Assembly (NCBI GenBank): GCA_959347425.1
Contig: OY365741.1
Span: forward strand, 620,001-684,000
DNA from: an uncultured Amylibacter sp.
Lineage (GTDB): Bacteria; Pseudomonadota; Alphaproteobacteria; Rhodobacterales; Rhodobacteraceae
Reading direction: 5' to 3'
DNA: 64,000 nt
In this document: in pieces, positions 24,052-46,580 of the stretch
Numbering within the stretch: position 1 is the stretch's first letter
How the letters are laid out: each line of letters opens with the position of its first letter
Translations under genes and position numbers: made by a program
The notes under the pieces: generated by a model
Told to the model about the DNA's origin: nothing
Database searches by the model: none
The model's input: the letters and a program-made list of their open reading frames with translations, nothing else

Positions 24052-24070
24052 ATATATCTCCTAACCTGCC

Positions 24071-27158: not shown

Positions 27159-28040
27159 ATGACACAAACCCCCGCCGAAACCCAAATCATCCAGAATATA
27201 GCCGATATATCCGCGCCTTATACCGCCGTATTGTGCGATTTGTGGGGCTGTTTGCACGATGGTATCCGCCCGTTTGACGCGGGGCTCGCCGCATTGCAAA
27301 CCCTTTGCACGCAAGGCAAATCGGTGTGGTTGCTGACCAATTCCCCGCGACCCAGCCCCGATGTTATCCGCCAGTTGGATGCGATAGGCGTTACCCGCGA
27401 CCTCTACCATGGTGTGATTTCCAGTGGTGATGCGGCGATAGCGGAGGTTGCGAATGGCACTTATGGCTCGCAAATATACCATCTTGGACCAGCGCGGGAT
27501 TTGCCGTTTTTCAAAACGCTGGATGTCACGCTGACCACGCAAGACCACGCGGACGCGATAATCTGCACGGGGCTGATAAACGATGAAACCGAAACCCCCG
27601 ATGATTACAAAAACGCCCTGCTGGACGCGAAAAACCGAGACCTACCGATGCTCTGCGCCAACCCTGATATAATAGTTGATCGGGGTGATAAACGGATATT
27701 CTGTGCGGGTGCGCTGGCGGCCGCCTATGATAAAATCGGTGGGCGGGTGGATTACGCGGGCAAACCGCACGCGCCGATTTACCGCCTTGCGCTGGCTAAA
27801 TTAACCGCGACACACCAAGACATCCGCGCGGCGGACATCCTGTGCATAGGCGATGGTATCCACACGGACATAGCGGGGGCAACCGCCCAATCCATGCCGT
27901 CCGTGTTTATCACGGGCGGGCTGGCGGCACGGCAGACCGACACGCAGACCGCCCCGCAATCCAACCCGAACCCCGCGAAACTAGGCGAATTCCTGATAAA
28001 CCACCCGCGTCCGACCTACGCCATTGGTCACCTACGCTAG
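27159..28040 (+). CDS. HAD-superfamily class IIA phosphatase (TIGR01459-like)
   Basis: The 293-residue protein is a NagD-like HAD hydrolase. Motif I is CDLWGCLHDG, with Asp27 as nucleophile and tryptophan in place of the second aspartate, which is usual for the TIGR01459 group. Motif II is in the LLTNSPRPS segment and the late acidic motif IV is CIGDGIHTDIAGA. The substrate is unknown, probably a small phosphorylated metabolite. It ends 10 bp before the likely ribF start, and this HAD-ribF order suggests an operon. Confidence 0.82.
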   Translation: MTQTPAETQIIQNIADISAPYTAVLCDLWGCLHDGIRPFDAGLAALQTLCTQGKSVWLLTNSPRPSPDVIRQLDAIGVTRDLYHGVISSGDAAIAEVANGTYGSQIYHLGPARDLPFFKTLDVTLTTQDHADAIICTGLINDETETPDDYKNALLDAKNRDLPMLCANPDIIVDRGDKRIFCAGALAAAYDKIGGRVDYAGKPHAPIYRLALAKLTATHQDIRAADILCIGDGIHTDIAGATAQSMPSVFITGGLAARQTDTQTAPQSNPNPAKLGEFLINHPRPTYAIGHLR

Positions 28041-28050
28041 AAAGACCGCC

Positions 28051-29004
28051 ATGCAAATCATCCGCGATTATCAATTCCTAAACACAGAGCATAAGGGCAG
28101 CACCGTCGCCATCGGTAATTTTGATGGAGTCCATCTGGGGCATCGCCATGTGATAGCGATTGCGCGGGATATTGCCAAAGCCTCGGATACTCCGCTGGGG
28201 GTGCTGACCTTTGAACCGCACCCGCGGGCGTATTTTAACCCGCAAACCCCGCCGTTCCGCCTGATGTCGGCGCAGGCGAAAGCCAGCCAGTTGGATTTTT
28301 ACGGTATAGACCGCCTGTATCAGTTGAACTTTAACGCGCCTTTGTCAAACCTGACCGCGCGGGAGTTTGCGGGGGCTGTCATCACGGATGGGCTGGGGTT
28401 GGCCCATGTTGTGGTCGGCGAAGATTTCTGTTTTGGCAAGGGGCGGGCGGGCTCGGCGGATGATTTGCAACGATTGGGGGCGGAGTTTGGCTTTGGCGTG
28501 ACGATAGCACCGCTTTTGCGCGATGATGCCAGCACCCAGATTTTTTCTTCCACGGCGATTCGCGGGGCGTTGTCGGATGGGAAGCCAGACGCGGCGGCGC
28601 GGATGTTGGGGCATTGGTATCGTATTGAAAATAAGGTTATTCACGGGGATCAACGCGGGCGGACGTTGGGCTATCCGACGGCGAATTTATCGATTGACGG
28701 GTTGCATCCGCCGCGCTTTGGCGTTTATGCGTGTTTGGTGGATGTGCTGGACGGGGCGCATCGGGGGCGGTATCGCGCGGTTGCGTCCATTGGCGAGCGT
28801 CCTACCTTTGGCGGGCGGGTGGCGAATTTGGAGGTGTTTTTGTTTGATTTCAGCGCGGATATTTATGGAGCGCGGTTGTCCGTGGCTCTGGTGGATTATC
28901 AACGGGCAGAGCAAAAGTTTGACTCGGCAGAGGCTTTGATAGCCCAAATGGACGAGGATTCAACCCGCGCCCGTGCGACCTTGGCGGGGCTCGCCACAGG
29001 ATAG
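28051..29004 (+). CDS. ribF: Bifunctional riboflavin kinase/FAD synthetase RibF
   Basis: The 317-residue enzyme converts riboflavin to FMN and FAD. The N-terminal FAD synthetase has the nucleotidyltransferase motif GNFDGVHLGH (22-31) and the block FSSTAIRGALSDG; the C-terminal riboflavin kinase has GRTLGYPTANL. The start at 28051 is chosen because it follows the upstream stop, whereas an earlier in-frame ATG at 28024 lies inside the HAD gene. A strong hairpin terminator follows the stop. Confidence 0.94.
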   Translation: MQIIRDYQFLNTEHKGSTVAIGNFDGVHLGHRHVIAIARDIAKASDTPLGVLTFEPHPRAYFNPQTPPFRLMSAQAKASQLDFYGIDRLYQLNFNAPLSNLTAREFAGAVITDGLGLAHVVVGEDFCFGKGRAGSADDLQRLGAEFGFGVTIAPLLRDDASTQIFSSTAIRGALSDGKPDAAARMLGHWYRIENKVIHGDQRGRTLGYPTANLSIDGLHPPRFGVYACLVDVLDGAHRGRYRAVASIGERPTFGGRVANLEVFLFDFSADIYGARLSVALVDYQRAEQKFDSAEALIAQMDEDSTRARATLAGLATG

Positions 29005-29043
29005 CCCCACGGGATAGCCACAAAAAACAATCCGCTAAAAATA

Positions 29044-29075
29044 AATCGGGGGCAGTGATGCCCCCGATTTTTTTG
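29044..29075. terminator. Bidirectional rho-independent terminator between ribF and the giant lipoprotein gene
   Basis: ATCGGGGGCA-GTGA-TGCCCCCGAT is a near-perfect 10-bp stem followed by a T-tract on the plus strand, and A-rich sequence on the left that gives Ts on the minus strand. It sits between two convergent genes and serves ribF most clearly. Confidence 0.88.
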
Positions 29076-29098
29076 TTTTGATTAGAGTTTAATCGTTA

Positions 29099-32000
29099 TT
29101 ATTGGGGGGGTTTAACGATAAACCCGCCACCAAAGCTATAGTCTACAGTACCAGGAACAATATCTGGTCCGATAAACGCACCAACCGCAGCTTTACTCCC
29201 GATAATACCAGATACGCTCCCCTCTGAGCCATTCGTGCCACCAATTGCATTGATATTAGGGGTGTCAGGAGTATAAGCAGTACCAGTCACCTCTTTACCA
29301 TACGCAACACCAGTAATAATACCAGCTGCCGTATAATTGCCATCTATGACAATGTGCCTACCAAGCCCATTCGTGATATCATTATCTACATTAATAGCCC
29401 CTTCTATGGTTCGGGCATCATAATCAACAGACATCTTAAATACCCGCTCGCTGGTATTGCTATTCACATCATCCCCAACTCCAATCCAGTGAATTTTCCC
29501 AGTCCAAACGGCATTGTTTACACTTCTGTCAAATACCGGCGCGCCGACATTACCAAAAGTCGCGTCAATCCCAGCATAAAAACGCTGAGCACCTGCATCA
29601 ACTGCCTCGGTTATAGGAGTAACGCCAATATCACCAGCGACAGCTGCTCTTGGCACACCACCCACAATAACAGACATAGTGGCATTATTTGTATCATTAT
29701 CCACATCAGTCTGTGTCACAAATCGCCCTGCTGCCACCGCTGCTTTCTGTCCAGAAGTAAATGTGACACTTATATTCGGCACGGCGGTATCTTCTATCCT
29801 CACGGCAGAGCTGATAGTTGTATAGAGAGTGGCGGCGGGCGGTGGCCCAACCTTAAAATCAGTCACTAATTGATTTTTTGAAGTATCAACATTACGCCAT
29901 AACGCAAATGTCCCAGTCGTAAGGCTCTCCCTCCAAACATTTGGTGCTTGTCTGGCTAGACAACCATCAGGGGCAGTCGATTCATCACAATAGGTCGCTT
30001 GCGCCGCGTAGTCGCATGCCCAAGTGGTTTGATCGAAAGCCGCCGTCGAACAATTCGTAATCCGGTTCGAGCGTTCGTCATTATAGTCGGTAATTTGAAG
30101 ACAAGCAGCGATAAATGGGTCACGCATATTATCCAGCCCAGCAACGAGGGCAAAAGTAGAATCGCTTATACTACCACAAATTACCCCAGCCGCATCTATT
30201 TCGGTAGAAGGGGCATTACAAAGGTTAACATCAGTGTCGCTAATAGTAGCCGTATTGGTATTGCTTATACTAGTTTGGTCTGCGTTTGCAGAATTCCTAC
30301 AATATGCAAGACGGTTTGTTCTATAATCACTAAGATTACCAGCACCAAGTTCCGTCGTACAGTTACCAAACGGATTCCGCAGACAAGCTGCGGTCGCGGT
30401 ATGGGCGGTTCTGCAAATATTCTTTTGGCTGTTCACGAGGTCTCCCCCACGGCAAGTCAGTTGACGATTTGTCTTTAAGGTGGTAAAAAGAGCCCCACCA
30501 TCGCCACCCGCAACAAAATTAAGTTGAGCAAGATCGGTGCCTTCACAAGTGCCGAACGGGTCTTTCAAACAGCGCACATCGTCAAGAGCAGGAGCGCATC
30601 TGCCAGTGGTATCACTAACAATCTCCGCATCAGTATCACACAAGCCAAGAACCATCTCTTTCTCAAGATCATAGCCAGCATCATCACAAGTAGTAGGCGT
30701 GAACGGATTATTCGCACAGTTTATCACAGTCTGTGGGCATTCTGCCAGATTGCTAACGCTTATAGCCACATCCGGTGTTCCACCGACACATGAAGCAGCA
30801 AAGCTTTTTCGCACGTTGGTGTTAGACCCCACAGTACAAGCATTACTAAACGGATTGGCATTAACCCCTGTTGGTGTTTCACAAACCGCCGCTATAACAC
30901 CACCTTTATTGCAATTGGCGGGGTTGTAATCCGAAGACGCTCCAGCATCCCGACACGATTCCGTAAATCTCGTCCGTGTGGCATCAAACAGACTATAGTC
31001 GGTGCAATCCAAATCGCCTGTAATTCCTGTAATGCCAGTCGCCATGCCAAACGGATTATCTGTCGCACCATCCCCTCCACATACACCCACTATCGCACTT
31101 GTTACCGCTCTTGTGGTCGGCGCATTTTCCTCTAAACAATGTGCGTCACCTGAGTTGTCAAGGGTTAGACAAGACAACAGAACCGCTCTTCTACGGGCAT
31201 CAAGGTCAGTAATATCATCACCCTCCCCACAAATAGAGGCAAAGGGTCTGGCATTATCGCCACTATCCACACAAATCAATGCTTTCACAAGTTCAACTTC
31301 ACACCGTCCTGTACGCATCGCACTCACAGCAGAGCAATTCTCGGCAAAAGCTGTCGCCCGTGCATCGGTAAAACCTTCGCCAGCAATGCTAGCGAAATTA
31401 TCACAAGCCGCATCACGCGGGTCGGCACCACAAGTGGCCAAAATCTCAACCACATCGTTATTGGCGACAGGAGACGCGCTGTCATCTATTGTTCTTATAC
31501 AAACATTAGTAGCTACATTTTCGCCACGTTGATCTGTGCCCGTCCCTTCGCCTTTAGCCAAACAAGCATTAATAACCATTTGCTGTGCGGAAGTGGCAGA
31601 TGCCCCCCCCTCGCTACAAATAGGAGCCCAAGGATTAGTTTGCAAACCATCAAGGGTTGTGCAAATCTCTGCCGTTGCAAGACCGCATTCAACACCATTA
31701 CGAGAGGCTAAATCACCATCGCAAAGACCAGCATGCGCTGCCCGTGCGGTGTTATAATTGGTATCCGTCAAACAATTAAACATATCAGTACCCGTGGCAG
31801 TCGCAAACAGTTTATCATCCTTACAGAAATTATCAACAGCACCACGGCAATATGCGTCAGTGCCATCGGTTCTAATAGCTAGGCTTGTCGTACCCAAAGC
31901 AGAACAATAAGTCGTCCGCAAGGTTTGCGCATCCGCAATAGCCCCGCCAACATGCGTATCAGCACAAGCTACACTAGTCGCAAATTCGCCAAACGGATTG

Positions 32001-35000
32001 GCAACACAAGGATTGGTAGTAGCAAGCGTCTGACAATCGCCCAGACTGATATTCGCCGTACCGTCTGTGCTTTCCAAACCACAATAGGTAATCTTACGAG
32101 CAGCAAAAAACTTAGCGACGGATATATCTTGGCAAGTTTCAACGCCAGTAGTGCTAATCAGTGATGTGGCAAAAGGATTCTTAACACAGGCGTTAATTTC
32201 AGCCGTGCAACCATTTTCTGTACTTGTGCCATCACAGCTATCAATCAATGTTTTGCGTTGCGTGTCAAAAGTGTTATCTTGCGCAAAACAGTAATTAGCG
32301 TTAAAGGGGTTTGTGCCGACTACTGCGGTATCGTCCGCGCCAGTACCACAAACATTAGCCACAAGAACACCACAACGGGCATCGCCTGGCGTACCGCTCG
32401 CAAGACATGTCACCGTCTCCAAAGTATTGCGAAGAGTATCGTAATTGGAATTATCCGCACAATTAAGCGCAGGCGTAGTTACACCAGCAGAAGTAGCCTC
32501 AGCACGATTCAAGTAAGGATTGGTGGTTATGCAAGTCAATTGACCCACACCTGCAATCGTCATACAATCTGCATTATCGGCCGCAGTAACTGCAGGGTCT
32601 GCAACAGCAGCCACACACAAATCAACAACACTTTGACGAGCCATCGCATAGGCAGGTTCATTAATGCAATCTGTCGCATCCGTACCCGCCACAAACGGTG
32701 CGGCATAACACGCGATTACTTCTGACGCACAAGTCGCACCATCGGCATTCGCACCCAATCTAGTCGCCCCGCCCGTTAAAGCACCGCAAGCCTCAACAAA
32801 CTCCACCCGATCCGCGTCAAATTCATTATCCTTACGGACACAGAATGGAGCGAAAGGATTGGCGTCCTCGCCCAGCCCTTCGCAAACGACTGATGCAAAA
32901 TCTACATCGCTATCAAGAGCATTATCAACACCACCAGTAGTTCGGCAAAGCGTTTCATCAAAACCTTCCGCATCCACAGCCGTACAATATGCCATCCGTT
33001 GCGTTGTTAAAAACGTCCGCAATTCGGCGGTAATTGTGGCACCAGTTTGCGGGAGATCTGCCGTGCAAGTCGCGCTAAACGGATTGGCAAGACACCCATC
33101 GTCGGTGTTAATTGAATTAGAATTGGTGGGAGTATCCATACAACCAGCCTCAGAATTTCTTCGCCCACCTACGCCACAATAATACCTCTTGGAAGAGACA
33201 TACGTATTGTCAGCACAAACTCCTGCAAACGGGTTCAGACGTTCGCCCTCAGCCCCACCGGCATACGAGCAAATTTCACCACGGATAGTGGTTCCAGTTC
33301 CACCCGCGCCCTCACTCCCGCAGAGGTCTGTATCACCAGTGGCGACCATGGCCGCACTTCCCGCACGCGGACCTTCACAGAAGGCATAACGGGCGGCCCG
33401 TGCATTCCTGAACCTATGCCCTGTAGAACCCGTGCATGTCGTATCAAACGGATTTCTAAGACAAGTTTGGTAAGTTGTGTCGCCGGTGTTTATGTTTGTG
33501 CAACTTGGCAGATTGGCGTTACCATTGCTCATACAAACTTCCATGTGGTCGGCACGGGCAAAATCAAACAAATCGCTGTCACAATCCGTATGAAACGGAT
33601 CGTCCAGACAACTGCCGACTGTTACGGCAGGAACGGCTGGAATGGCATCTTTCGCATCCTCTGGTCGTGCAACAATATCTGGCGTGGCGGGGTTGTTATC
33701 GTGGTCAATCATAGTCGTGCCTGCGATTATAGCGGTCACTTCCGCCTCCCCTGCGACAATCTCTCTACCTGTGCAACTGGCATCATCTTTATTAGTGGTA
33801 AGAGCGGCAATACATTGGCCAATAGAAACCCTCCGCGCGGTGGCAATATCCGTGCGTGAATCGCAATTCGTATTAAAAATCGTGGTCGCACCATCGGCAC
33901 AATAGGCAGTCAGCGCATCGGCAAAAATCGTAGTATCACAACCAGTGGCATAAGGGTTTGTATTACACGCGGCAATCGTTGGCGCGTCTGTGACACCGGA
34001 AACGGCCACATCACAGCCTCTTGTTGCAGTGCCAGCACGGCATTCATCCGCAAATGTTTTCCGTGCGGCATCTGCGCCAGTATAAGCGGTTTCGGTACAA
34101 TTTACATTGAAAACATTATAATTGGACGCGGTGGGGGACGTACAAGAATCATTCCTTGCGGTGTTATAGGTATCCGCAGTGCAATCGGTATCAAATGGTC
34201 GAGCGATACACTTGTCGCCCGCAAACGCATCAAACGATACACAATCATCCTGGAATGGGTCATTACGACAGCCATTAACAGTCGTGTCACCAACCGGGAG
34301 AAGACAACTTGCCTGAGTCATTTTATCCACTGCCAACTCGCAGTCATTTTGAAAGAAATCTCTTCTATCGCTAAAGGCATCAAGCGTATCACAACCCGAA
34401 GCGAACGGGTTACCAATACAAGTGCCAACATTGACTTCGGTCACACTATTGGTCATATCCTCGGCGATAATCACCTGATCGCATGCATTGTGTTCGTCAT
34501 TATTCCGACAGGCGACAAAGCTCTCCGTTCTTGTATCATCAAAAACATCATTGGTACAATCGGCACCAAACGGTTCAGCGATACAAGAGGCAACGGTTAC
34601 GGCATCCGCGGCATTTTGACCAGTCACTTCAGCTTTAATAATTAAGGGCATACAAAGGGGATCGGACTCTCTATTGCTTGTCACGCCCTCACATGCATCA
34701 AATGCACTTGATCTTGTATCATCAAAATCAGCAATCTCACACCCCGTAAGGAACGGATTAGCTTTACATGAACCAACAGTTATATTGTTTGCGGGGTCAG
34801 AAGCTTCTACAATCACATCCGCACAATCAGGGTCCACAGGGCTCGTAGCCGTTGCATCACAATCCGTAATAGCCGTTGCACGGTCATCATCATAACGGTT
34901 GCCGTCAAAGAAACAAGTCGTGCCAAACGGATTCGTACCGCAAGCCGTCATTGAAGAACAGTTATCATCGTTCGGATTCGCGGTACAATAAGTAGCCCGC

Positions 35001-37558
35001 CCACCACTGGCATCATTAATAGTCGGGACACCATCACAATTCGCATGAAAGATATTCGCATTTGCGTTTGTGCTGGTTGCAGAGCAAAACTCTGTCATAT
35101 AAAGGTCAGTAGTACAAAGGGTTGCATCGGGCATATCAGTCAAACAATACTCATAACGATTGTTTTGCAATTCCGTCAGGTCAACCTCGGCCGCACCCGC
35201 ACATGAACCATTATCGCTCTCATCAAAAGGATTGGTCAAACACGTTACAACGGCCGCGGCAGATGTACAAAGCGCGTTCGTGGCGGCAAGGGCATCATCG
35301 CCAGTACAAAGAGCAATAACATTGCTCTTCGCTGTTGCCAGCAAAGTCGCGCCCAACTGGTCGCTACACTTACTGGCAGTGGCATCAAAAGGATTCGTCA
35401 AGCAATCGCTAGTCGTCGCGGCAGTCGCACACCGAGGGTTGCTTCTGTCATCAGCATCATCGCCCGTGCAAAGAGCAACTATATCGCTTTGCAAGTCATC
35501 CCGAACCATCGTACCCAGAGTCTCTCCACAATTAATACCGTTATCAGCGTCAGGCGTGAAAGGGTCGTCTAGGCATGTTTTTATATTACCAGTCAGATCC
35601 ATACAAAGAGCATTAGTGGTAATGGCATCACCCGTGCAAAGTGCAATTACATTGCTTTGCAAAGACATCAAGGGGTTTGAATCCAAAACTGTAACACATT
35701 GTGCGGCAAAAGGATTGTCAAAACATTCCGTTACTAAAGCAGCCGACGCAATCGTACAACGGGGGCTTGAACCATCGGCATCCGCACCTGTGCAAACCTC
35801 AATCAAATTGTTTTGCGCTGTTTCCGCCTGTGTTGCGCCCAAAGTCGTTTCACAAGCATTCCCAAAAGGATTTGTTATACAACTCTTGGTCGCACTATCA
35901 GGCAGAGTCGTACAAAGCGTATTCGTGGCAACACTAGCATCTGTTCCAGTACAAAGTGCAATCAAATTATTTTGCGCTGTTGTCGCCTGTGTTTCACTGC
36001 CCAAATCTGTATCACAAGAATCGGCAAAAGGATTGGCTAGGCAAGCTGTCGTTGCCGCGATAGTCATACACCGCGAGTTCATACCGTCAGCATCAGCACC
36101 AGTGCAAAGTGAAATTATATTATTTTGCGCTGTTGCCGCATGTGTTGCGCCCAATTCTGTAGCACAGGTTGCGCCAAAAGGATTGGCTAGGCAAGCCGTT
36201 ACTTCGCCATCCGTCGCCGAAAGGTCACAACGCGGATCACTGCTAACGACATCCGCACCCGTACAATATGTAATCAAATTGTCTTGCGCAGTCCCCAGAG
36301 TGTTTGCATCGCCCAAAGCCGTGAGCAATGTCCTACAATTAATACCACCATCAACGTTTTCGGTGAAAGGATTTGCTATACACATAATCTCATTCGCAGT
36401 AAACCCGTCATTCGTTGCACAACCTAATTGCTTGCCATTATTCTCAACACAAGATCCAAGCCGAACCGCCCGCGCCCCATCAAAGATATCACTACCTTTA
36501 CAATTCGTAGAAAACGGCTGGTTGGCACAGGTTGCAACGGTTACAGGTGTTGTCATACACCTTGCATCATTTGGCATTGTCGCGGCTTTGCCATTCTCCC
36601 CATCACATTCGGCAATACTTCCTATGCGTGGCGCTTCAAAAGCTGTCACGGTACAATCAGCACCATCATGCTCACCATTAGAACAGTTCGTAGCAAAATC
36701 TGCCCGCACACTAGCAAAAGCATTGCCCGTAGTCGTGCAAAGGTCGCTAAACGGATTGGCACCCGCACCACTAGCCGAGCAAACCCGCGCCAAAGCAGAC
36801 CCGCAAACCCCTGTATCCGCATCATCGCCCAGACAATAAGCAAGACGGCTCGTCTGCGCATCCGCCCTAAAGCTGGCAAATTCGCGATACATTGTTGACG
36901 TTAAACATGATTCTGCCCAAGGATCATCAAAACAAGTGAATCCCGCGTCTACACGCGCCGCCACACAATCAGCATTCTTCGTAGAATCCGCAAGTGTTGC
37001 ACTATCGACACACTTCTCAATAATTGCGTTCCGCGCAGGGTTCAATCTGCCACAAACCAAATCAAACGGGTTGGCATCATCACCGCATCTTTGCACAACC
37101 GTACTGTTGCATAAAGTCTCATTCCTGTTTGAATCATCACGGCAAAGGATAACACGAGTGTTTCTTACCTCACTAAGCGTGACACCTGAACCTTGCCTTG
37201 CGGTGTCATACGCCGCCGCATCACACGCCCTTGTACCCGAAGTGGCACGTGGGTCATCCAAACAATATACCACATCAAGAGGCACAATAGCACAATCCAC
37301 TGCGCGGTCGCTGGCGTCGGTATCAATACTGGTAGCGCAATTGGTAATCTCCATCGTCCGTGCTGCTGCATCCGCAGGTCTGGTACAGGTTGGACCAAAC
37401 GGATTGGCATCACAGGGATTTACCACTGGATCCCCAGTTGCGACTGGCGTAGCAGCCCCGCCCCCGCCGCCACAAGCCGCCAGAATAAATAAACCCGCGA
37501 ATAATGCGATAAGCGCCGCGCGAGTAAGGATTAAGTTTGTTTTTAAAGTGTTCAGCAT
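29099..37558 (-). CDS. Giant cysteine-rich repeat lipoprotein (about 2,819 aa)
   Basis: No known function. Starting at ATG 37558, the first 29 residues are a lipoprotein signal peptide with lipobox LAAC (Cys29) followed by GGGGG, so the mature protein should be lipid-anchored. It then carries roughly 40 copies (counted by eye) of a unit of about 50 residues: C-x2-[ND]-P-F-xn-C, a spacer with a conserved Arg/Asn, then two more cysteines (for example CLANPFGATC...CTGADADG...C). Between about 35160 and 36400 the units are nearly regular, with a period near 155 bp. The last 250 residues lack the unit and share a module with the next two genes (RFYAGI, AVWTGKIHW, SGIIGSKAAVGAF, FGGGFIV). Two further in-frame starts lie upstream at 37612 and 37678. 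Confidence 0.8.
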   Translation of the reverse strand: MLNTLKTNLILTRAALIALFAGLFILAACGGGGGAATPVATGDPVVNPCDANPFGPTCTRPADAAARTMEITNCATSIDTDASDRAVDCAIVPLDVVYCLDDPRATSGTRACDAAAYDTARQGSGVTLSEVRNTRVILCRDDSNRNETLCNSTVVQRCGDDANPFDLVCGRLNPARNAIIEKCVDSATLADSTKNADCVAARVDAGFTCFDDPWAESCLTSTMYREFASFRADAQTSRLAYCLGDDADTGVCGSALARVCSASGAGANPFSDLCTTTGNAFASVRADFATNCSNGEHDGADCTVTAFEAPRIGSIAECDGENGKAATMPNDARCMTTPVTVATCANQPFSTNCKGSDIFDGARAVRLGSCVENNGKQLGCATNDGFTANEIMCIANPFTENVDGGINCRTLLTALGDANTLGTAQDNLITYCTGADVVSSDPRCDLSATDGEVTACLANPFGATCATELGATHAATAQNNIISLCTGADADGMNSRCMTIAATTACLANPFADSCDTDLGSETQATTAQNNLIALCTGTDASVATNTLCTTLPDSATKSCITNPFGNACETTLGATQAETAQNNLIEVCTGADADGSSPRCTIASAALVTECFDNPFAAQCVTVLDSNPLMSLQSNVIALCTGDAITTNALCMDLTGNIKTCLDDPFTPDADNGINCGETLGTMVRDDLQSDIVALCTGDDADDRSNPRCATAATTSDCLTNPFDATASKCSDQLGATLLATAKSNVIALCTGDDALAATNALCTSAAAVVTCLTNPFDESDNGSCAGAAEVDLTELQNNRYEYCLTDMPDATLCTTDLYMTEFCSATSTNANANIFHANCDGVPTINDASGGRATYCTANPNDDNCSSMTACGTNPFGTTCFFDGNRYDDDRATAITDCDATATSPVDPDCADVIVEASDPANNITVGSCKANPFLTGCEIADFDDTRSSAFDACEGVTSNRESDPLCMPLIIKAEVTGQNAADAVTVASCIAEPFGADCTNDVFDDTRTESFVACRNNDEHNACDQVIIAEDMTNSVTEVNVGTCIGNPFASGCDTLDAFSDRRDFFQNDCELAVDKMTQASCLLPVGDTTVNGCRNDPFQDDCVSFDAFAGDKCIARPFDTDCTADTYNTARNDSCTSPTASNYNVFNVNCTETAYTGADAARKTFADECRAGTATRGCDVAVSGVTDAPTIAACNTNPYATGCDTTIFADALTAYCADGATTIFNTNCDSRTDIATARRVSIGQCIAALTTNKDDASCTGREIVAGEAEVTAIIAGTTMIDHDNNPATPDIVARPEDAKDAIPAVPAVTVGSCLDDPFHTDCDSDLFDFARADHMEVCMSNGNANLPSCTNINTGDTTYQTCLRNPFDTTCTGSTGHRFRNARAARYAFCEGPRAGSAAMVATGDTDLCGSEGAGGTGTTIRGEICSYAGGAEGERLNPFAGVCADNTYVSSKRYYCGVGGRRNSEAGCMDTPTNSNSINTDDGCLANPFSATCTADLPQTGATITAELRTFLTTQRMAYCTAVDAEGFDETLCRTTGGVDNALDSDVDFASVVCEGLGEDANPFAPFCVRKDNEFDADRVEFVEACGALTGGATRLGANADGATCASEVIACYAAPFVAGTDATDCINEPAYAMARQSVVDLCVAAVADPAVTAADNADCMTIAGVGQLTCITTNPYLNRAEATSAGVTTPALNCADNSNYDTLRNTLETVTCLASGTPGDARCGVLVANVCGTGADDTAVVGTNPFNANYCFAQDNTFDTQRKTLIDSCDGTSTENGCTAEINACVKNPFATSLISTTGVETCQDISVAKFFAARKITYCGLESTDGTANISLGDCQTLATTNPCVANPFGEFATSVACADTHVGGAIADAQTLRTTYCSALGTTSLAIRTDGTDAYCRGAVDNFCKDDKLFATATGTDMFNCLTDTNYNTARAAHAGLCDGDLASRNGVECGLATAEICTTLDGLQTNPWAPICSEGGASATSAQQMVINACLAKGEGTGTDQRGENVATNVCIRTIDDSASPVANNDVVEILATCGADPRDAACDNFASIAGEGFTDARATAFAENCSAVSAMRTGRCEVELVKALICVDSGDNARPFASICGEGDDITDLDARRRAVLLSCLTLDNSGDAHCLEENAPTTRAVTSAIVGVCGGDGATDNPFGMATGITGITGDLDCTDYSLFDATRTRFTESCRDAGASSDYNPANCNKGGVIAAVCETPTGVNANPFSNACTVGSNTNVRKSFAASCVGGTPDVAISVSNLAECPQTVINCANNPFTPTTCDDAGYDLEKEMVLGLCDTDAEIVSDTTGRCAPALDDVRCLKDPFGTCEGTDLAQLNFVAGGDGGALFTTLKTNRQLTCRGGDLVNSQKNICRTAHTATAACLRNPFGNCTTELGAGNLSDYRTNRLAYCRNSANADQTSISNTNTATISDTDVNLCNAPSTEIDAAGVICGSISDSTFALVAGLDNMRDPFIAACLQITDYNDERSNRITNCSTAAFDQTTWACDYAAQATYCDESTAPDGCLARQAPNVWRESLTTGTFALWRNVDTSKNQLVTDFKVGPPPAATLYTTISSAVRIEDTAVPNISVTFTSGQKAAVAAGRFVTQTDVDNDTNNATMSVIVGGVPRAAVAGDIGVTPITEAVDAGAQRFYAGIDATFGNVGAPVFDRSVNNAVWTGKIHWIGVGDDVNSNTSERVFKMSVDYDARTIEGAINVDNDITNGLGRHIVIDGNYTAAGIITGVAYGKEVTGTAYTPDTPNINAIGGTNGSEGSVSGIIGSKAAVGAFIGPDIVPGTVDYSFGGGFIVKPPQ

Positions 37559-37690
37559 TGAAGCCTCCATTAGATTAGTTTTGTTTTTGGTTGAGGTTAT
37601 AGGGTTCAGCATTGATGCCTCTGTTAGATTAGCCGTTAGATTAGTTGTGTTTTTAACAGGTTTTAAAGAGTGTAGCATTGATGCCTCCGT
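37543..37690 (-). repeat. Three tandem in-frame RBS-start cassettes before the giant gene
   Basis: A GGAGGC-type ribosome site plus ATGCT occurs three times, with starts at 37678, 37612 and 37558, each preceded by GGAGGCATCA, AGAGGCATCA or GGAGGCTTCA. All are in frame, so translation from the outer ones adds NLTEASMLNP-like and NLMEASMLNT-like repeats ahead of the signal peptide. The innermost start gives a normal lipoprotein signal. Confidence 0.8.
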
Positions 37691-37829
37691 TAATTTTTCT
37701 GCACTTTCTTACGCAGAATTCATGAATTTCGTGATGGTCGCAAAGACCGTTCCAGCTCGTTTCGCAGGTTTTAGGGGGTTTTGCAATAGTCTTTTTTTAA
37801 AAAAGCATAAATTTTGAAAAGATTTTATG

Positions 37830-37855
37830 AAAAAGTGATATTTTTTCCACTTTTT
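37830..37855. terminator. Possible terminator between the cysteine-rich genes
   Basis: AAAAAGTG and CACTTTTT form an 8-bp stem with a 10-nt loop, flanked by T-rich sequence on the plus strand and A-rich sequence on the left, about 110 bp after the 844-codon gene. The stem is weak, so termination would be partial. Confidence 0.4.
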
Positions 37856-37967
37856 TAGCGTTTTTTGGGTTTTTGGGGGAACTTGTGGATATTTTTGCGG
37901 GGATTGTTATAGACTATAGCTATACGCGGGGTTATTTGCGGTATTATTCGCTATATTACTCGCGATA

Positions 37968-40502
37968 TTACTCGGCTGGTTTTGTCGCGACAAATCCACC
38001 AGCATAACCGTTCGTCTCTGACTCATTGCTATGAAACGCGCCCAACGCACCATCCTGCCCGATAAGCCCCATCAATATGCCGTTCGCTCCGCGAGTCATC
38101 GCGGCGGGGGCTGTTTCAACACCGCCCGCGAATATGCCATAATTCACCGTTCCATTTGTAATAACGCCATTGGCGGTAAAATCGCCTTCCAGCAAGAAGT
38201 GATTACTGCCCGAAGGAACAAAGGCTTTAATAGTCCCTCCATTATTCGCATAGGTAACGGTCAGAGTCATTGGCAACACTGCGCTAATATTTGCATCAAC
38301 GGTTGCTTGTAGGCTACCCGTCCATTCGCCCGCTTGCGTGGCATCATTCAAAGGTTTGCCCAGATTTGCCCCGCTAAACAAACCCGCATAAAATTTAGAG
38401 TTAGCGGTGAAAAAGCCCACGCCGTTTTTGGCATCATCCTCTATCGTTAATAAGGTGGCGGTGACGTTTGATGGGGTGTCAATTCCATCTGCCGTCCCCA
38501 ATAAGAATTGGTTTTCTGGCGTGTTGGTATTCAAAGCAACCAGCGGAGTGCTATTATCGCTAAAGCTCTTCGCCCAAGTGGCGGCATTTGGATTTCCAAA
38601 CGTAACCGTGCAACCCGTCGCCCCTGTCACCAAACACGCGGCAATTTTATCGGCACGCGCATCATCAAAATGTTTAGGTGCGCAAACATCGTCTTGATAG
38701 TTTTGAAACGGTTCGCGATTACACGCATTGATAACGCTGTTATCCCCACCGCATTCCGTTGTCCGCATCCCTGAACGACACTCATTAACAAATTGCAGTC
38801 GTTTGTCATCGAAATCCTCACGGCTCAAACAAGCGGGGGTTCCCGTCCTATCAGAATCTGTGAATAAGTTTTGTCCCGTCTCACAATATCTTACAATAGT
38901 CGCCTCACACAAGGTGCTGGTTTCTGTCTTGCCTTCGGTTTCCAAGAAATTTGCGCAATAGACACCGCGTTGGCCTTGCGCTCTGTCTTGTTGTTTTCCC
39001 ATTTGTAACTCACCACTGCTATCAACGAATTGGTAGGTACCACCAAAGAATTCCGTGCAATCATCGTGCGCTGGATCTATAAAACAAGCCTCCGTTTGTA
39101 TCCCAAGGCAAAGCGGGTCTGTGGTTTTAGTGCCAATCACGCAATACAACGCCCGCTCTTGCCGTGCGGAGGTTTGTTCATCGGTCCCGCCAAAGGAATC
39201 CTCACACTCCCCAAAAGGGTTTGCAACGCATTCCGTCGCGCTTGCCCCACCGCATATATCTGGATATCTGCTGGCAATAAAAGCATTCACACAAAGAAGC
39301 GAGCGATTTTGCTGGGCGGTTGTAACATTTTCGGGACTGCCCAGATTAAGCTCGGACGCGCAATCTACGCCATCAACAAAAGGGTCGCCAAAACAAGGAT
39401 TATTGGCAAGTTCAACCCCACACGCGTTTGCTTGTGCCGCGGTGCTGGCGTCAATACATAATTCAACCCGTATCAACCGTGCGGGGGCAAAGGCAGGAAT
39501 ATCGCAATTAGAATTGCCAAACGGGGTTTCATTGCAAAAATTAACGACAGAGGTGCACCCCTCTGCCAAGGTAGGTGTTTCATCATTACGGCAAGTTGTT
39601 GCGATTCTTAATCGTTCATCCGCATAGTCGGTTACACCAGGAGCATCTTTACAAAACACATCAAAAACGCCTGACGGATTTTCGGGGTCCTCGCACACAT
39701 TCGTAACTGTGGATTCACATAAAACAGGGTTTGCGTCAATATTTGCCTCGCCTGCATCATTTGTATCTCGACAATAATTAATCCGCGCCTGTCTGGTGTT
39801 TTCCACCAAGGATACTTCTTTTAATTCTGTCATTTCTTCGCCATTTTCATCTAACTCAATATCGCCGTTTGCATCCCTGACTGGTACTTGACCACTGATT
39901 GTTTCTTGCAAGGCCGTCTGCTGTTCGCAAGCCTCATTATACGGGTCTTTTAGGCAACTGAACACACCCGACTCGGCCGCCAGTGCGCTCGCACATTCGG
40001 GGGAATTGGTGTTTTCAAAATCACTGCACCAAACAAAGGCATCACGGCATCGCGCTGCCAGTGGATTAACTGTACATTCGGCAACAACGGGTTCAATCAA
40101 TGCTTGGCGTTGGGGGGCATATTTTGCTAATGCTTCTTTCCGTGCGGCCTCTTGCGCTGCGCGGCGGGCTATGGATGCTTCGCGTTTGGCTTTGTCTTCG
40201 GGGGTTTCGTCTGCGGTTTCCTCGTCGGTTAGGTTTACCGTTGCTGCTCCAGCCAACAATTCTTCGGTTATCTCAGGATAGCATTTTGCTTGAAACGGGT
40301 GTAGATTGCACGGAATATTGCCCGAACTCACAGCATTTATCAAAGAACCCAAGCCACAGCCCGTAAGGATAAACATAGCGGACATCAGCACGACTAGCAC
40401 TGTTGCTAAGCGTGCCACGGATTGGCGAGCGGGGATAATAGTCCCGCCTGTTGCCCCACCCCTTGCAAAGAGTGTTTGAAGTTTTGAGTTTATATTAAGC
40501 AT
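37968..40502 (-). CDS. Cysteine-rich repeat lipoprotein, 844 aa
   Basis: The second member of the family. ATG 40502 follows AAGGAA and gives a long signal peptide (hydrophobic residues 30-48) with lipobox LTGC at Cys49. About ten units of the C-x2-xPF-xn-C type follow (PCNLHPFQAKC, PCFGDPFVDGVDC, ECVANPFGEC). A charged segment near residues 75-120 (TDEETADETPEDKAKREASIARRAAQE) may form a coiled coil, a part absent from the other two. The final 190 residues hold the shared module (KFYAGLFSGANLGKPL, EWTGSLQ, LMGLIGQDGALGAF, GYAGGFVA). No enzymatic motif is seen. Confidence 0.78.
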   Translation of the reverse strand: MLNINSKLQTLFARGGATGGTIIPARQSVARLATVLVVLMSAMFILTGCGLGSLINAVSSGNIPCNLHPFQAKCYPEITEELLAGAATVNLTDEETADETPEDKAKREASIARRAAQEAARKEALAKYAPQRQALIEPVVAECTVNPLAARCRDAFVWCSDFENTNSPECASALAAESGVFSCLKDPYNEACEQQTALQETISGQVPVRDANGDIELDENGEEMTELKEVSLVENTRQARINYCRDTNDAGEANIDANPVLCESTVTNVCEDPENPSGVFDVFCKDAPGVTDYADERLRIATTCRNDETPTLAEGCTSVVNFCNETPFGNSNCDIPAFAPARLIRVELCIDASTAAQANACGVELANNPCFGDPFVDGVDCASELNLGSPENVTTAQQNRSLLCVNAFIASRYPDICGGASATECVANPFGECEDSFGGTDEQTSARQERALYCVIGTKTTDPLCLGIQTEACFIDPAHDDCTEFFGGTYQFVDSSGELQMGKQQDRAQGQRGVYCANFLETEGKTETSTLCEATIVRYCETGQNLFTDSDRTGTPACLSREDFDDKRLQFVNECRSGMRTTECGGDNSVINACNREPFQNYQDDVCAPKHFDDARADKIAACLVTGATGCTVTFGNPNAATWAKSFSDNSTPLVALNTNTPENQFLLGTADGIDTPSNVTATLLTIEDDAKNGVGFFTANSKFYAGLFSGANLGKPLNDATQAGEWTGSLQATVDANISAVLPMTLTVTYANNGGTIKAFVPSGSNHFLLEGDFTANGVITNGTVNYGIFAGGVETAPAAMTRGANGILMGLIGQDGALGAFHSNESETNGYAGGFVATKPAE

Positions 40503-40645
40503 CGTGTCGTTCCTTGTTGTGGGGATGTTGTTTAATAAATATGAAGACATCAGACTGATTTTATCCTATGTTTGCATGTGCGTCAAGCGTTTTTTACCAA
40601 GTTTTAATTTTTTCACATATAAATTAATATAAATTAAAGCCTTGA

Positions 40646-43600
40646 TTAACCGCCCGAAGGTTGGTTTGGTTGCTGTACTGGCTCTTGCGTTGGCGTTTCC
40701 ACCACAGATTCTGGCTCCACTGGTGGAGTCACCACAAACCCGCCAGCATAGCCGACATCGGCCGCATTATCACTGATAAACGCACCAACCGCTCCGATTT
40801 CACCAATCAGCCCTTTAACAACCCCCGCACTGACGGCAGTAGGCGTGGCGGTCGCATCATTATTGGCAAAGATACCCAGTTTAACCGTGCCATCAATAAC
40901 CCCTTTTTCATTAAAAGTACCTTCCAATAAAAAATGCTCATAGTTATCGGTAACCTCATCCCCAAGCCGTCTGACAACGCCCCTAATCGCGGTTTGCTGA
41001 AAATCAATCCGTAAATCAAAATCTTTCACGGCGGAGGTGGCAGAGCCAGACGCGCCAGCGTCGCTAATCACCCATTGGATACTGCCAGTCCAAGTCGCAT
41101 GGACATCATCGCCTTGGGTAAAGGCGGGCAAGGGTTTGCCCAGGGTTGTGCCAGAGAATATCCCAGCATAAAACCGCGTTGTTTCATGCGGTTGCCCCGC
41201 GAAAAACGCCACACCGTATTCGGAAATAGCGTCAAGAGACTCGGTATAATACCGCGCTGGAGTCAGGCTTAGATGGGTGATGGTCGGGTCGTTCCCCTCT
41301 TTATCATTGACATCGCCAAAATCCAAACCGTGCTCAAGCCCGATAAGGAATTGGTTAGTGTCCGATACATCCCCATTGGCGGCAACGCTTGCCAGCTCAG
41401 CTGTGAAACTTTGCTCAAAAGTCGCGGCGGTGGGGCGTGCCAAAACAAACGCACAGTCAGAGTCATCCGCATTGGCTCTAATCGCGCAGTTTCTAATAAC
41501 ACTATCGCGGGCATCGGCATAGCTGTTATTATGCTGATGGCAAACGGCGGCAAACGGATTGGCATGGTTGCCCGTATCCGTGCAAATCATCGGTGTTGCC
41601 CCCACGCAGAGTTCAAAATTCGCAGTATCGCCAAGGCAATAAGTCAAACGCGCATTGCGGGTAAGAGTCACCAACTCGGCACTGCCCAGTTCTACCGCGC
41701 AGTCACGACTTGGGGCGGTTGAAAACGGGTCATCAAAGCAAGTGTAAGCATCCACGTAATGTGCGCAAAATTGTGTTGCTATCGCATTACCCTGATTGCA
41801 ATAATTGGCAATCGTACCCAGAAAGGCAGGATTATCGTTGCATATAGCATTGCTTTGAGTCGGATCTTCATTACACGATTTAATCAAGGCAGTACACCCC
41901 GCACCCTCAGGCATAACGCGACATGTATTGACCAGAGCCAACCGCTCTGCCGTATAGCGTGAATCGGTAAGGCAATCAAAGGATTCATCCATCAAATTAT
42001 CGGCGCAGAAATCGGCAATCGCATTGATGCAAGCCATATCCTCACGCACGCTCGCCCCACCAGTGGCAAGGGTTTGGCAATGGCTTATCCGTGCGGATTT
42101 GGCATCGGCAAACCCCTGTGTGCCACCCAATTGGGTTTCACAATCCGTGCCACTCCCCGTCATAAACGGGTCAGACAAACAGGTATAATCCGTAACCGTC
42201 ACTTCGCAATCGGTTGAGGTGAAATTATCTGCCATAGCACAATGGGCTATACGGGCAACATCATAGGCATCATCGGCACTACAACCATATTGTGCAGCAA
42301 ACAGATTATCCGTGCAGAACGATTTCACCGCACCAGAGCAGAGCGAATCGGCGCGGGCAATACGTGAATTCGTGTTTGCGTTCGCGTTTTCATTGGCGTT
42401 TTCACTGGCACCCAAATTGCTACAATAATCGTGTCGCTTTGTGCGGGTCGCCATAACCGCATCGGCAGAGCCTAACTCGGCATCGCAATTACCATCCATA
42501 AAGGGGTTTTCAAAACACGCGGTATCTTCGGCATAAGTACTACACACCCGCAGGGTTTGGTTTTCATTGCAAAAAGTCGTCCGTGCAAGATTAAACGCGT
42601 CTCTATTGCAAATCTCACTGCCAAACGGGGCGGTATTACAGGTATTCACCTCTGGTGTGCAGGTTTTATCCTTTGGGTCGGCAAGGCAGGTATGGGCTAA
42701 ATCCAACCGTGCCATGTCATAATCCGTATCGGTCAAACAGCCAAAGGTCGTCGATAAGGGGTCAGCCGTGCAATGGGCGAAAATCGCGGTTAAACACCGC
42801 GAATCCAAAGACGCATCCGCGCCATTAACTCCCAGCGTTTCACAATGGTCTATCCGTGCTTGTTGGGCGGCTTTTTGCGCCGTTACATCGCTATAAAACC
42901 CCTGACACTCGCCAAACGGGTTATCGATGCAATCGCTGGCGTTATCTGCACCAATACATAAGGTCGCGTGGGTATAGAGGTTATTGCCCTCGGTACAAAA
43001 CGCGGCACGTTCATGTTGGGCATCTGTCAGGGCTTGGGCACTGCCAAGGTGCTCGGCAGCCGAGCAATCGACATCATCGGTAAAGGGATTGGTAACGCAG
43101 GTATATCTCCTGGCAACATCACGGCAATTCCTTAACCCGATGGTTTCGGCGGTGTTGCAATAGGTTATCCTTGCGCCCTCAAACGCGGGAATACCACATA
43201 AGGTCGCACGGAATGGGTTTGCATTACAGGCATTAATAGCAACGGTACAGCCATCGCCTTGCGCATCCAAACGGCAGTTATTGGCCATATCCAGCCGAGC
43301 TTGCCCATAATCGGCACTGCAAATGGTATCAAACGGACTGCCCTCGCCTTCGCACAAATGGACGATAGTCCGCGCACAAAGCGCGTCATTATCGGCGTTT
43401 GTCCCATCACGGCAGAAATTCACGCGGTGCCCGATAGCATGGTCGCGAAATTCGGCAAATTTTTCGTCCTTATCGCAACCGTCATTGAACGGGTCTTGAA
43501 TACAAGGATTGACGGCAAAGGCGGGGGTGCATTCTTCTTGGGTGATTTTGTCTTCTTGCACGCAATAGCCGACTATCGGCGCACATTGTGTGGTATTCAC

Positions 43601-43864
43601 GTTCGGCGGTTGCGAGCAGACATCAATCACGGCTTTACGGGCAGAGGCGTAAGTATCACCGCAATCTTCACCAAACGGATTGCTTAGGCAGGGGTTTAGC
43701 GCGGATTTTAATGCGTTTTGGAGGTTGTTGCCTTGGGTGTCTATACTGGCGGCAAGCCCCCCGCCCCCGCAAGCGGTAAGGATGAAGAGCGCGGATAAGA
43801 TGATGGCTGATGTTGCCCGTCCGAGTAGTGGGGTTTTTGTGGGCTGGTTTGTTCTCGTGTTCAT
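40646..43864 (-). CDS. Cysteine-rich repeat lipoprotein, 1072 aa
   Basis: The third family member and first of the trio in transcription order. The start at 43864 has a good RBS (AAGGAGAG). The signal peptide ends at lipobox LTAC (Cys32) followed by GGGG. About sixteen units follow, well conserved here: CNANPFRATLC, then a helix-like EGARITYC, then CRDVARRYTC. The C-terminal 250 residues hold the shared module (RFYAGIFSGTTLGKPL, TWTGSIQWV, HFLLEGTF, VKGLIGEIGAVGAF, GYAGGFVVTPP) and end in a Pro/Gln-rich tail. The gene is 143 bp from the next member, so the three may form one transcription unit. No catalytic motif is recognised. Confidence 0.8.
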   Translation of the reverse strand: MNTRTNQPTKTPLLGRATSAIILSALFILTACGGGGLAASIDTQGNNLQNALKSALNPCLSNPFGEDCGDTYASARKAVIDVCSQPPNVNTTQCAPIVGYCVQEDKITQEECTPAFAVNPCIQDPFNDGCDKDEKFAEFRDHAIGHRVNFCRDGTNADNDALCARTIVHLCEGEGSPFDTICSADYGQARLDMANNCRLDAQGDGCTVAINACNANPFRATLCGIPAFEGARITYCNTAETIGLRNCRDVARRYTCVTNPFTDDVDCSAAEHLGSAQALTDAQHERAAFCTEGNNLYTHATLCIGADNASDCIDNPFGECQGFYSDVTAQKAAQQARIDHCETLGVNGADASLDSRCLTAIFAHCTADPLSTTFGCLTDTDYDMARLDLAHTCLADPKDKTCTPEVNTCNTAPFGSEICNRDAFNLARTTFCNENQTLRVCSTYAEDTACFENPFMDGNCDAELGSADAVMATRTKRHDYCSNLGASENANENANANTNSRIARADSLCSGAVKSFCTDNLFAAQYGCSADDAYDVARIAHCAMADNFTSTDCEVTVTDYTCLSDPFMTGSGTDCETQLGGTQGFADAKSARISHCQTLATGGASVREDMACINAIADFCADNLMDESFDCLTDSRYTAERLALVNTCRVMPEGAGCTALIKSCNEDPTQSNAICNDNPAFLGTIANYCNQGNAIATQFCAHYVDAYTCFDDPFSTAPSRDCAVELGSAELVTLTRNARLTYCLGDTANFELCVGATPMICTDTGNHANPFAAVCHQHNNSYADARDSVIRNCAIRANADDSDCAFVLARPTAATFEQSFTAELASVAANGDVSDTNQFLIGLEHGLDFGDVNDKEGNDPTITHLSLTPARYYTESLDAISEYGVAFFAGQPHETTRFYAGIFSGTTLGKPLPAFTQGDDVHATWTGSIQWVISDAGASGSATSAVKDFDLRIDFQQTAIRGVVRRLGDEVTDNYEHFLLEGTFNEKGVIDGTVKLGIFANNDATATPTAVSAGVVKGLIGEIGAVGAFISDNAADVGYAGGFVVTPPVEPESVVETPTQEPVQQPNQPSGG

Positions 43865-44071
43865 TGTGCTCTCCTTGTTTTAATCCGCGGTGCGTGGATT
43901 ATCATTGCATAAAATGGTGCGACCACCGGTGAAAACCTATTGGCAATAGGTGTTATTAACAGGGACGCTTATCCCTTGTTTTTATGTTTGGATCAAGGAT
44001 TTTGTATGCGCAAATCGCGGTAAATTTGCGGTGAATGTGGGGCAAATTTATGGTGAATTTTGGGTGAATTG

Positions 44072-44500
44072 GAATGAATGGTGAATTATGAATTGTGAAT
44101 GGTGAATGGTGAATGATTGGTTATTAGAGATTAGGAGTTAGGTATTAGAGGTTAAGAGCGGAGGTTTTTTGTTGCGCCCTCACTGCGTTCGGTTGCCCAC
44201 CCCTCCTGCGGAGAGCTGGACGGGGATTTGTGACTAAAGCCTATCCAAGCATCTAGGCATAGCCTAAATAAATTTAGAGCAAACCTATCACCAATTCCCA
44301 AGTATTCTTTGTAAATCATCCAATCTAACGTCTTGTTATTCCAGATAATAAATTTATAGAATCCCTAGCATCTTATAACCAAAGGGCTTTTGGCATGCCC
44401 TGCTCACAGAGCAGGGCTACGCACAAAAGACCACGCTGGTCGGTATCGCGCAAGCGATTACGAAGACCCGCAAGGGCTAAACCTGCTAATCCCTAATCGT
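44072..44500 (-). repeat. Dispersed heptamer-bounded element, copy E (subfamily II, inverted)
   Basis: It occupies most of the 620-bp gap between the cysteine-rich gene and the threonine aldolase gene. The left end is GGTGAAT-type heptamers; then CTCCGCAGGAG-related sequence, the subfamily II block CATCTAGGCATAGCC, the A/T-rich middle, and the variable hairpin at 44387-44429 with inner stem GCCCTGCTC/GAGCAGGGC and an ACA loop. GACCACGCTGGTC follows, and the right end is short, CCTAATC-type. The right end encodes the last residues of the threonine aldolase. The part of the gap nearer the lipoprotein gene (43865-44071) holds only that gene's upstream region and a small CCTATTG/CAATAGG hairpin. 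Confidence 0.9.
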
Positions 44501-45529
44501 TGAAACAAACCCATCCACCTCTTCATCGGTGGTCGCCCAATTACAGATTAACCGTGCCGATTCCAGACCATCCAACCCATCAGGCGTGGGATGCGGATAA
44601 TAGGCCGCACCCGCCGACCGCGCCCGTTCATGCCCCGCCGAAGACCAGCCCGCGAACACCATATTCGCCTCACACCCATGATGCAAAACCGCGCCCGCCT
44701 CGGCCATTCCAACCGCTAACCGCGCCGCCGCCGCGTTCGCTTGCCCAGCTAATCGCAACCACAAATCATCCGTCAAATACGCCAACATCTGCGCCGATAA
44801 AAACCGATGTTTGGAAAACAAATGCCCAGCGCGTTTGCGCCGCAATTCAAACTCCCACGCCTTCGCGGGGTCAAAGAAAATAACAGCCTCCACCCCCAAA
44901 CACCCGTTTTTAGTCGCGCCAAAACTAACCGCATCAATCCCGCATTTCCAGCTCATCTCCGCCGCCGAGCACCCCAGCGCGACCATCGCATTGGCAAACC
45001 GCGCCCCGTCCAGATGCACGGGCATATCAAACCGCGCGGCGATATCGCACAAATCGCGCAACTGGGGCAGGGAATAAACCCCGCCCAGCTCATTAACTGA
45101 GGTCAGGGACAGGCACCCTAACTGAGCATTATGGACTCCGTGTGGGGCGGTGGTTTCGGCAGCACAGGCGAATATATCCGCGTCAATCCGCCCGTCCGCT
45201 CCGTCCAAAATATGCAGTTTTGAGCCGCCCGTAAAGAACTCTGGCGCGGCGCATTCGTCGGTTTCTATATGGGCGTTTTTGTGGCAGAAAATCTTTTGCC
45301 ATGGCTGGGTGAAAGTGCTGAGGATAAGGCAATTCGCCGCCGTGCCAGTGGCAACCAGATGAACCGAAGCGTTGGGGGCTTCAAATACCGTGCGGATTTT
45401 ATCGCGCACTTCGTCCATCAAATCCTCCGCGCCATAAGGCGGGGTATAGCCCGCCCCCGCGTTTTCTGCCAGCAGGGCTGCTAATATTTCGGGGGCGGCG
45501 GGGGATGCGTTGTCGGATGCGAAATTCAT
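44486..45529 (-). CDS. Low-specificity L-threonine aldolase-like PLP enzyme
   Basis: The 347-residue fold-type I PLP enzyme cleaves threonine/allo-threonine to glycine and acetaldehyde, or acts on a related beta-hydroxy amino acid. It starts with FASDNASPAAPEIL, shows VATGTAANCLIL (PLP-phosphate region), VHLDGARFANA with the PLP-contacting Asp, and SFGATKNGCLG with the Schiff-base lysine. Length is typical. The C-terminal STIRD and stop are written in heptamer-like repeat sequence (ACGATTAGGGATTAG) of element E, so the end of the protein has probably been altered by repeat growth. Confidence 0.88.
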   Translation of the reverse strand: MNFASDNASPAAPEILAALLAENAGAGYTPPYGAEDLMDEVRDKIRTVFEAPNASVHLVATGTAANCLILSTFTQPWQKIFCHKNAHIETDECAAPEFFTGGSKLHILDGADGRIDADIFACAAETTAPHGVHNAQLGCLSLTSVNELGGVYSLPQLRDLCDIAARFDMPVHLDGARFANAMVALGCSAAEMSWKCGIDAVSFGATKNGCLGVEAVIFFDPAKAWEFELRRKRAGHLFSKHRFLSAQMLAYLTDDLWLRLAGQANAAAARLAVGMAEAGAVLHHGCEANMVFAGWSSAGHERARSAGAAYYPHPTPDGLDGLESARLICNWATTDEEVDGFVSTIRD

Positions 45530-46209: not shown

Positions 46210-46316
46210 TGTCGTTTTCTTTTTGGTCAGGGATTGTTTATGGTTTGCTTTAGCACAAAGAGTTGGTAAAAGTCTAGTTAAATTAACCTCTTTTAGAATA
46301 AGGTCGTGCGAATCCG

Positions 46317-46580
46317 ATGAAAAAAACAATAATGGGCAAGTTGGAACGGGCGTTTGCGCCTGTGGAAGTGGAGGTTGTGGATGAAAGCCATCTGCATATT
46401 GGGCATGCGGGCTATCGCGAGGGGGGGAATAGCCATTTTGCCGTGCGGATACGGGCGGCGGCGTTTGATGGGGTGTCGCGGGTGCAGGCGCAGAGGTTGG
46501 TTTATAAGGCGTTAGCGGGCGAGCTGGACGCGGGGTTGCATGCTTTGCGGTTGGATGTGGCGGGGGTTAGTGGTGAATGA
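46317..46580 (+). CDS. BolA-family protein
   Basis: The 87-residue protein has the BolA class II fold: HLHIGHAGYREGGNSHFAVRI with the conserved histidines and VQAQRLVYKALAGEL in the helix region. BolA proteins partner monothiol glutaredoxins in iron-sulfur cluster handling. It is divergent from the J-domain gene, a common alphaproteobacterial arrangement. Its last residues (SGE) run into heptamer-type repeats (GGTGAATGA). Confidence 0.88.
   Translation: MKKTIMGKLERAFAPVEVEVVDESHLHIGHAGYREGGNSHFAVRIRAAAFDGVSRVQAQRLVYKALAGELDAGLHALRLDVAGVSGE

Follow-up and report, generated by a model that had tools for sequence, protein, structure and literature searches.

A 64,000-nt stretch of contig OY365741.1 (positions 620,001 to 684,000, assembly GCA_959347425.1, uncultured Amylibacter sp.), here called the window, carries three consecutive minus-strand open reading frames (ORFs), genes A, B and C, between ribF and a gene of the beta-eliminating-lyase family. 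Gene A (29099..37678) has 2,859 codons, gene B (37968..40550) 860 and gene C (40646..43864) 1,072. Each encodes a lipoprotein with a cysteine array (174, 38 and 62 mature Cys in A, B and C, respectively) followed by a single Cys-free C-terminal barrel. An initial annotation of this DNA had described three adjacent giant lipoprotein genes on the minus strand, each with a lipobox export signal, and both points hold. Its counts of 2,819, 844 and 1,072 codons refer to the same genes, with translation of A and B begun at downstream in-frame ATGs (codons 41 and 17, respectively). The barrel was absent from that annotation. The full proteins gave no match above any cut-off in Pfam and NCBIfam, and nothing convincing was found among PDB sequences.

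Three database searches yielded 144 related proteins which, with A, B and C, form a family set of 147; each search scored only about 8,000 candidates sharing most words, and one search listed 120 of the 144 matches. The repeat units described below are found in 147/147 and the barrel in 145/147 of these proteins, but the near-universal presence of both is expected from the way in which the family was assembled. The two proteins without a barrel are P0018, whose orthologues are longer by about 400 residues, and P0112, which loses the barrel pattern. A set of 139 relatives was judged intact.

The lipobox cysteines are C69 in A (ILAAC), C65 in B (ILTGC) and C32 in C (ILTAC). All three are followed by Gly at +2, a residue that fits outer-membrane sorting of lipoproteins. 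The signal peptide and lipobox of A extend from Met41 to Cys69 (37472..37558, minus strand). The export signal is kept in homologues: 133 of the 139 intact relatives have a lipobox, and the remaining six display a plain signal peptide, as judged by eye. At the start of gene A there are three in-frame modules (37554..37688, minus strand), each a Shine-Dalgarno-like sequence with an ATG, at codons 1, 23 and 41; these conform to the pattern RGAGGCWTCAATGCT, which was itself written from the three gene A start sites. Averaged over all pairs in the set of A and eight orthologues, identity is 94% in residues 1-40 and 98% in residues 41-69, versus 58% overall. Thus the leader of gene A is read, from its sequence, as a putative triplicated and conserved translation start. 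In gene B the sequence AAGGA precedes Met17 at 40502, and 844 codons are obtained if translation is read from there.

The cysteine arrays span residues 89-2573 of A (29960..37414), 81-647 of B (38610..40310) and 59-804 of C (41453..43690), all on the minus strand, and every Cys other than that of the lipobox sits upstream of the C-terminal domain. If paired in order, the Cys of A form 87 loops. The unit pattern is C-x2-NPF-x3-C, a helix, C-x8-12-C, and a shorter helix that leads to the next unit. A hidden Markov model (HMM) of the unit detects 45, 10 and 16 units in A, B and C, or 37, 7 and 14 at an independent E-value (i-E) of 0.1 or less, although these E-values are flattered because the seeds came partly from A, B and C themselves. 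These numbers agree with the approximately 40, 10 and 16 units of the initial annotation. When stretches of at least 40 codons were scanned in all six frames of the window with the unit HMM, matches were limited to A, B and C and one 56-codon stretch at E 0.69.

The array pattern is also found in the 139 intact relatives. Odd-numbered gaps between Cys (the loops) have a median of 11 residues and even-numbered gaps (the helices) one of 14, and the motif [ND]P[FYWL] occurs in 1195/3228 odd gaps versus 13/3028 even gaps. NPF-like and non-NPF loops alternate in 2185/2962 steps. The arrays therefore begin and end with a complete loop. The most regular stretch is residues 496-864 of A (DNA 35087-36193), where unit starts are 50-57 residues apart. 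The period of about 155 bp proposed earlier for positions 35160-36400 is therefore present at the protein level, but not as a DNA tandem repeat: Tandem Repeats Finder reported no period above 12 bp in 29000-44000.

In AlphaFold models, a structure prediction that the initial annotation had suggested, three units taken alone fold as an all-helical repeat rod, with a predicted local distance difference test score (pLDDT) of 89. A fold search with the three-unit model gave no significant PDB or viral match, and the predicted solenoid fold thus appears to have no solved relative. Library scans of whole proteins and of three-unit stretches also gave no named family above cut-off, in line with the annotation, in which the unit was not recognised as one.

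Two known Cys-rich repeats were compared with the unit. Hcp structures consist of disulfide-stapled helix pairs, in which they resemble the probable rod of this family. The Hcp or Sel1-like unit has about 36 residues and two Cys, whereas the unit described here has about 50 residues and four Cys and occurs in a lipoprotein with a barrel. The GLG1, or Cysteine-rich FGF receptor, repeat (PF00839) is a helical repeat with four Cys. Only one of 16 three-unit stretches matches PF00839, at E 0.13 and below cut-off, and whole A, B and C do not match it up to E 1. Neither the whole proteins nor the three-unit stretches match a Sel1 model. No Hcp chain is found among the fold-search matches listed for the three-unit model, although that list excludes nothing. 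The likeness to the Helicobacter cysteine-rich proteins (Hcp, PF08238) is that these too are secreted Cys-rich repeat paralogues of a host-associated bacterium, as described in the available excerpts of PMC3608669.

With the lipobox Cys removed, the mature Cys count is even in 140/147 family proteins and in 137/139 intact relatives; since the proteins are related, these counts are not independent trials. The two odd members of the intact set, P0013 and P0085, no longer follow the barrel pattern close to the C-terminus. Stretches that bear Cys before, between or after barrels have even numbers in 210/212 cases. Cys totals leave a remainder of two on division by four in 60/139 relatives, so the parity is not merely a result of duplication of four-Cys units. 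Given the even counts, every C-x8-12-C loop probably has a disulfide of its own that closes it. The Cys are compatible with a folded and paired unit, as had been proposed. In an alignment of A and nine full-length orthologues, 139 of 202 Cys columns are invariant. Where Cys are lost in blocks, these usually number four in a row, one block being a pair; most isolated changes are shifts of one to a few columns. In the barrel region, three of the ten proteins (P0017, P0019 and P0023) have a Cys pair, at A positions 2659 and 2671, that the remaining seven lack.

The C-terminal barrels span residues 2610-2858 of A (29105..29851), 648-858 of B (37977..38609) and 805-1048 of C (40721..41452), all on the minus strand. 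The barrel of A was detected at an i-E of 2.3e-15 with an HMM whose seed had no A sequence, those of B and C were delimited with the barrel HMM, and in a six-frame scan like that made for the unit only A, B and C match. The barrel of C lies within the AlphaFold model m5dde7da86b07 (pLDDT 82), and the best solved structures that match this model are hemophilin, fHbp, TbpB and NHBA. The 50 solved entries listed for it by VIA are surface or secreted proteins of the Slam-cargo type, as classed by title or general knowledge. At the level of predicted structure, the domain thus displays a TbpB-like C-terminal barrel fold, that of the Slam-dependent surface lipoproteins (type XI cargo), and this modeled likeness is the best clue to surface display.

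The family differs in the number of barrels: of the 145 proteins that have one, 40 have a single barrel, 69 have two and 36 have three to thirteen. In a FastTree tree of the barrels, those that adjoin an array separate from those that follow another barrel (46 changes versus 101-122 in 40 shuffles). A and nine orthologues (45-92% identity to A) have 2,735-2,894 residues, and two further relatives, P0018 and P0024, are shorter than these. The initial proposal that length varies with repeat number therefore fails for A across these ten proteins, but it applies to other members of the wider family, in which array length does differ. A subgroup of nine proteins (P0105, P0108, P0113, P0115, P0117, P0120, P0121, P0124 and P0128) has 20-24 mature Cys, two barrels and a precomputed PF27069.1 tag; a Pfam scan of three of the tagged relatives did not report PF27069.1.

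For eight family proteins the contig is 4,737,489 nt long, and for another eight it is 2,404,561 nt; if an identical length indicates one contig, there are many paralogues. Eight relatives have a named source. Two are from Proteobacteria bacterium (P0125 and P0141) and six from Candidatus Halichondribacter symbioticus (P0028, P0044, P0053, P0060, P0078 and P0096), a member of the Rhodobacterales and, according to the excerpts of PMC10154371, an obligate symbiont of the sponge Halichondria panicea. These six (ACNYPD_ tags) are annotated only as hypothetical proteins, yet have a Cys array and one or more barrels; none is among the length-conserved orthologues of A. The window DNA looks alphaproteobacterial, and among plasmids its CobT is best matched by Cereibacter, at 60.6%. 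A sponge-symbiont origin of the window DNA is possible.

Slam (type XI) cargo, as described in the excerpts of PMC5449769 and PMC8406197, may be lipidated or soluble and ends in an eight-stranded barrel that is thought to carry the export signal. Examples are TbpB, LbpB, fHbp, NHBA, HpuA and the hemophilin HphA. The family described here is similar in the predicted fold of its C-terminal barrel, in having lipidated and soluble versions (133 and 6 of 139, with A, B and C of the lipidated kind) and in having a variable part before the barrel. In Slam cargo, however, this part is a short handle, whereas here it is a Cys rod of up to about 2,500 residues. The favored reading, with a probability of roughly 0.55, is that A, B and C form rods on the surface of the outer membrane and that their barrel is of a Slam type and serves export or binding. 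The disulfide-stapled surface stalks of the initial annotation are consistent with the predicted helical rod and with Cys counts that fit full pairing, while surface exposure is suggested from the barrel fold.

In such a scheme A, B and C would be exported by Sec, acylated on the lipobox Cys and anchored in the outer membrane. The Cys array would oxidise outside the cytoplasm, each disulfide-closed C-x8-12-C loop joining two helices, with loops of the NPF type largely alternating with a second type that has no NPF motif. The result would be a stiff helical solenoid rod, which in A is perhaps tens of nanometres long, as a rough guess. The barrel would probably be the address read by a Slam-type outer-membrane translocon, a ligand-binding head at the tip of the rod, or both. 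The many members per genome would point to arms, directed at host or nutrients, that have expanded in number in animal-associated Alphaproteobacteria.

Several observations weigh against surface rods of the Slam type. No Slam gene (DUF560) is found among the 39 window ORFs scanned, of 119 listed with at least 100 amino acids (aa); the 39 cover every listed ORF of at least 480 aa except the antisense ORF 35160-36839, and do not extend to ORFs that run off the window ends. Fourteen barrels were compared with Pfam and NCBIfam and none had a match above cut-off, TbpB_B_D included; the best matches below cut-off were to Pfam DUF7172 (E 0.06, one member) and to an NCBIfam aminotransferase model (E 0.0029, one member). 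The four significant Foldseek matches of the barrel are modest, with template modelling (TM) scores of 0.30-0.38 by query and 0.47-0.55 by target and a root-mean-square deviation above 6, and the model has 13 strands of at least three residues, not plainly the eight reported for cargo barrels. The 36 of 145 relatives with three or more barrels exceed the one or two per protein reported for cargo in the excerpts of PMC5449769, although A, B and C have one each. In addition, five of the eight proteins outside the intact set have odd Cys counts and three have even counts, and it should be noted that these five look incomplete or have no recognised signal.

A possible, though less likely, alternative is that the Cys solenoid and not the barrel is the binding part, so that the proteins would be adhesion rods that contact sponge tissue, mucus or other bacteria, with paralogues that differ in target. 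The two apparent one-contig sets and the six of eight source-named relatives from an obligate sponge symbiont (PMC10154371, excerpts) are consistent with this, as is the proposal, in the excerpts of PMC8406197, that the N-terminal part of Slam cargo acts on the host. However, a sponge source for the window DNA is only possible, and the conserved length of A is unlike that of a fast-evolving adhesin. An unlikely explanation is nutrient capture, in which the barrel would be a hemophilin- or TbpB-like head that binds heme, an iron carrier or some other metal complex and passes it to a TonB receptor, the rod being only a spacer. In HphA it is the handle domain that supplies the heme-binding machinery and the barrel is the shared part, whereas here the Cys rod directly precedes the barrel. 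The 39 window ORFs scanned include neither a TonB receptor nor a heme gene, and an array of 174 Cys looks excessive for a spacer.

Still less likely are tethers between the outer membrane and the cell wall that face the periplasm and are never surface-exposed, with the barrel a mere resemblance of fold. A lipobox with Gly at +2, present in most members, fits ordinary Lol sorting under the rule for the +2 residue, and the lack of a Slam gene among the scanned ORFs also agrees. However, the solved entries listed by VIA, as classed above, are of the Slam-cargo type, the six members that have no lipobox keep array and barrels, and the A array, with its roughly 2,485 residues, seems too large to fit into the periplasm. 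Coordination of zinc or iron-sulfur clusters by the Cys in place of disulfides is very improbable: even Cys numbers would fit metal sites too, but the proteins are exported, only one CxxC motif is found in all 139 proteins, and the 60 totals noted above, together with 70/200 arrays, leave a remainder of two, contrary to obligate four-Cys sites.

Around the cluster, library matches identify ribF (28024-29004) on the gene A side and the beta-eliminating-lyase family gene (44486-45529) on the gene C side. A terminator-like stem of 12 pairs (29043..29070) lies between the 3′ ends of gene A and ribF. It is the longest found in a stem search whose 20 sites, versus 17.8 in shuffled sequences, are near chance. 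An ORF of 247 aa that adjoins the cluster (45586-46329, minus strand) has a C-terminal DnaJ-like stretch (E 1e-5, slightly below the family cut-off).

Elsewhere in the window, the Rfam model PYLIS_3, the pyrrolysine insertion element of mttB, matches 9431-9530 on the plus strand (48.2 bits versus a cut-off of 38), inside an MttB-like ORF (8279-9922) in which no amber codon interrupts the reading frame. At 22641-24787 (minus strand), three neighbouring ORFs of 236-238 aa look alike, have signal-like starts and end in GVTFAF or GITFAF. They have no Pfam match at E 0.01, and from their sequences are perhaps a triplicated family of outer-membrane barrels. At 57377-58693 (plus strand) one protein combines a DNA methylase domain with a T5orf172 domain that lies after it.

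None of the libraries searched gives a curated name to the family, which comprises 144 database proteins together with A, B and C. In its members a repeat rod that has no known relative is combined with a barrel whose predicted fold is that of pathogen vaccine and heme-capture proteins, and the Cys parity rule offers an easy genome-level check of disulfide use. Since relatives are found in a sponge symbiont, A, B and C may serve as arms with which the cell touches a host or feeds on it. It is proposed tentatively, at somewhat under even odds, that the proteins are giant helical solenoids, closed by disulfides and displayed at the cell surface, and represent a new class of type XI cargo; with 1 to 13 export or binding barrels and many paralogues per genome, they would serve as the main host-facing arms of sponge-symbiont Alphaproteobacteria. 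If Slam export is true, the known size of type XI cargo would rise to nearly 4,800 residues and its barrel number to as many as 13, and sponge-symbiont biology would gain a concrete set of surface proteins.
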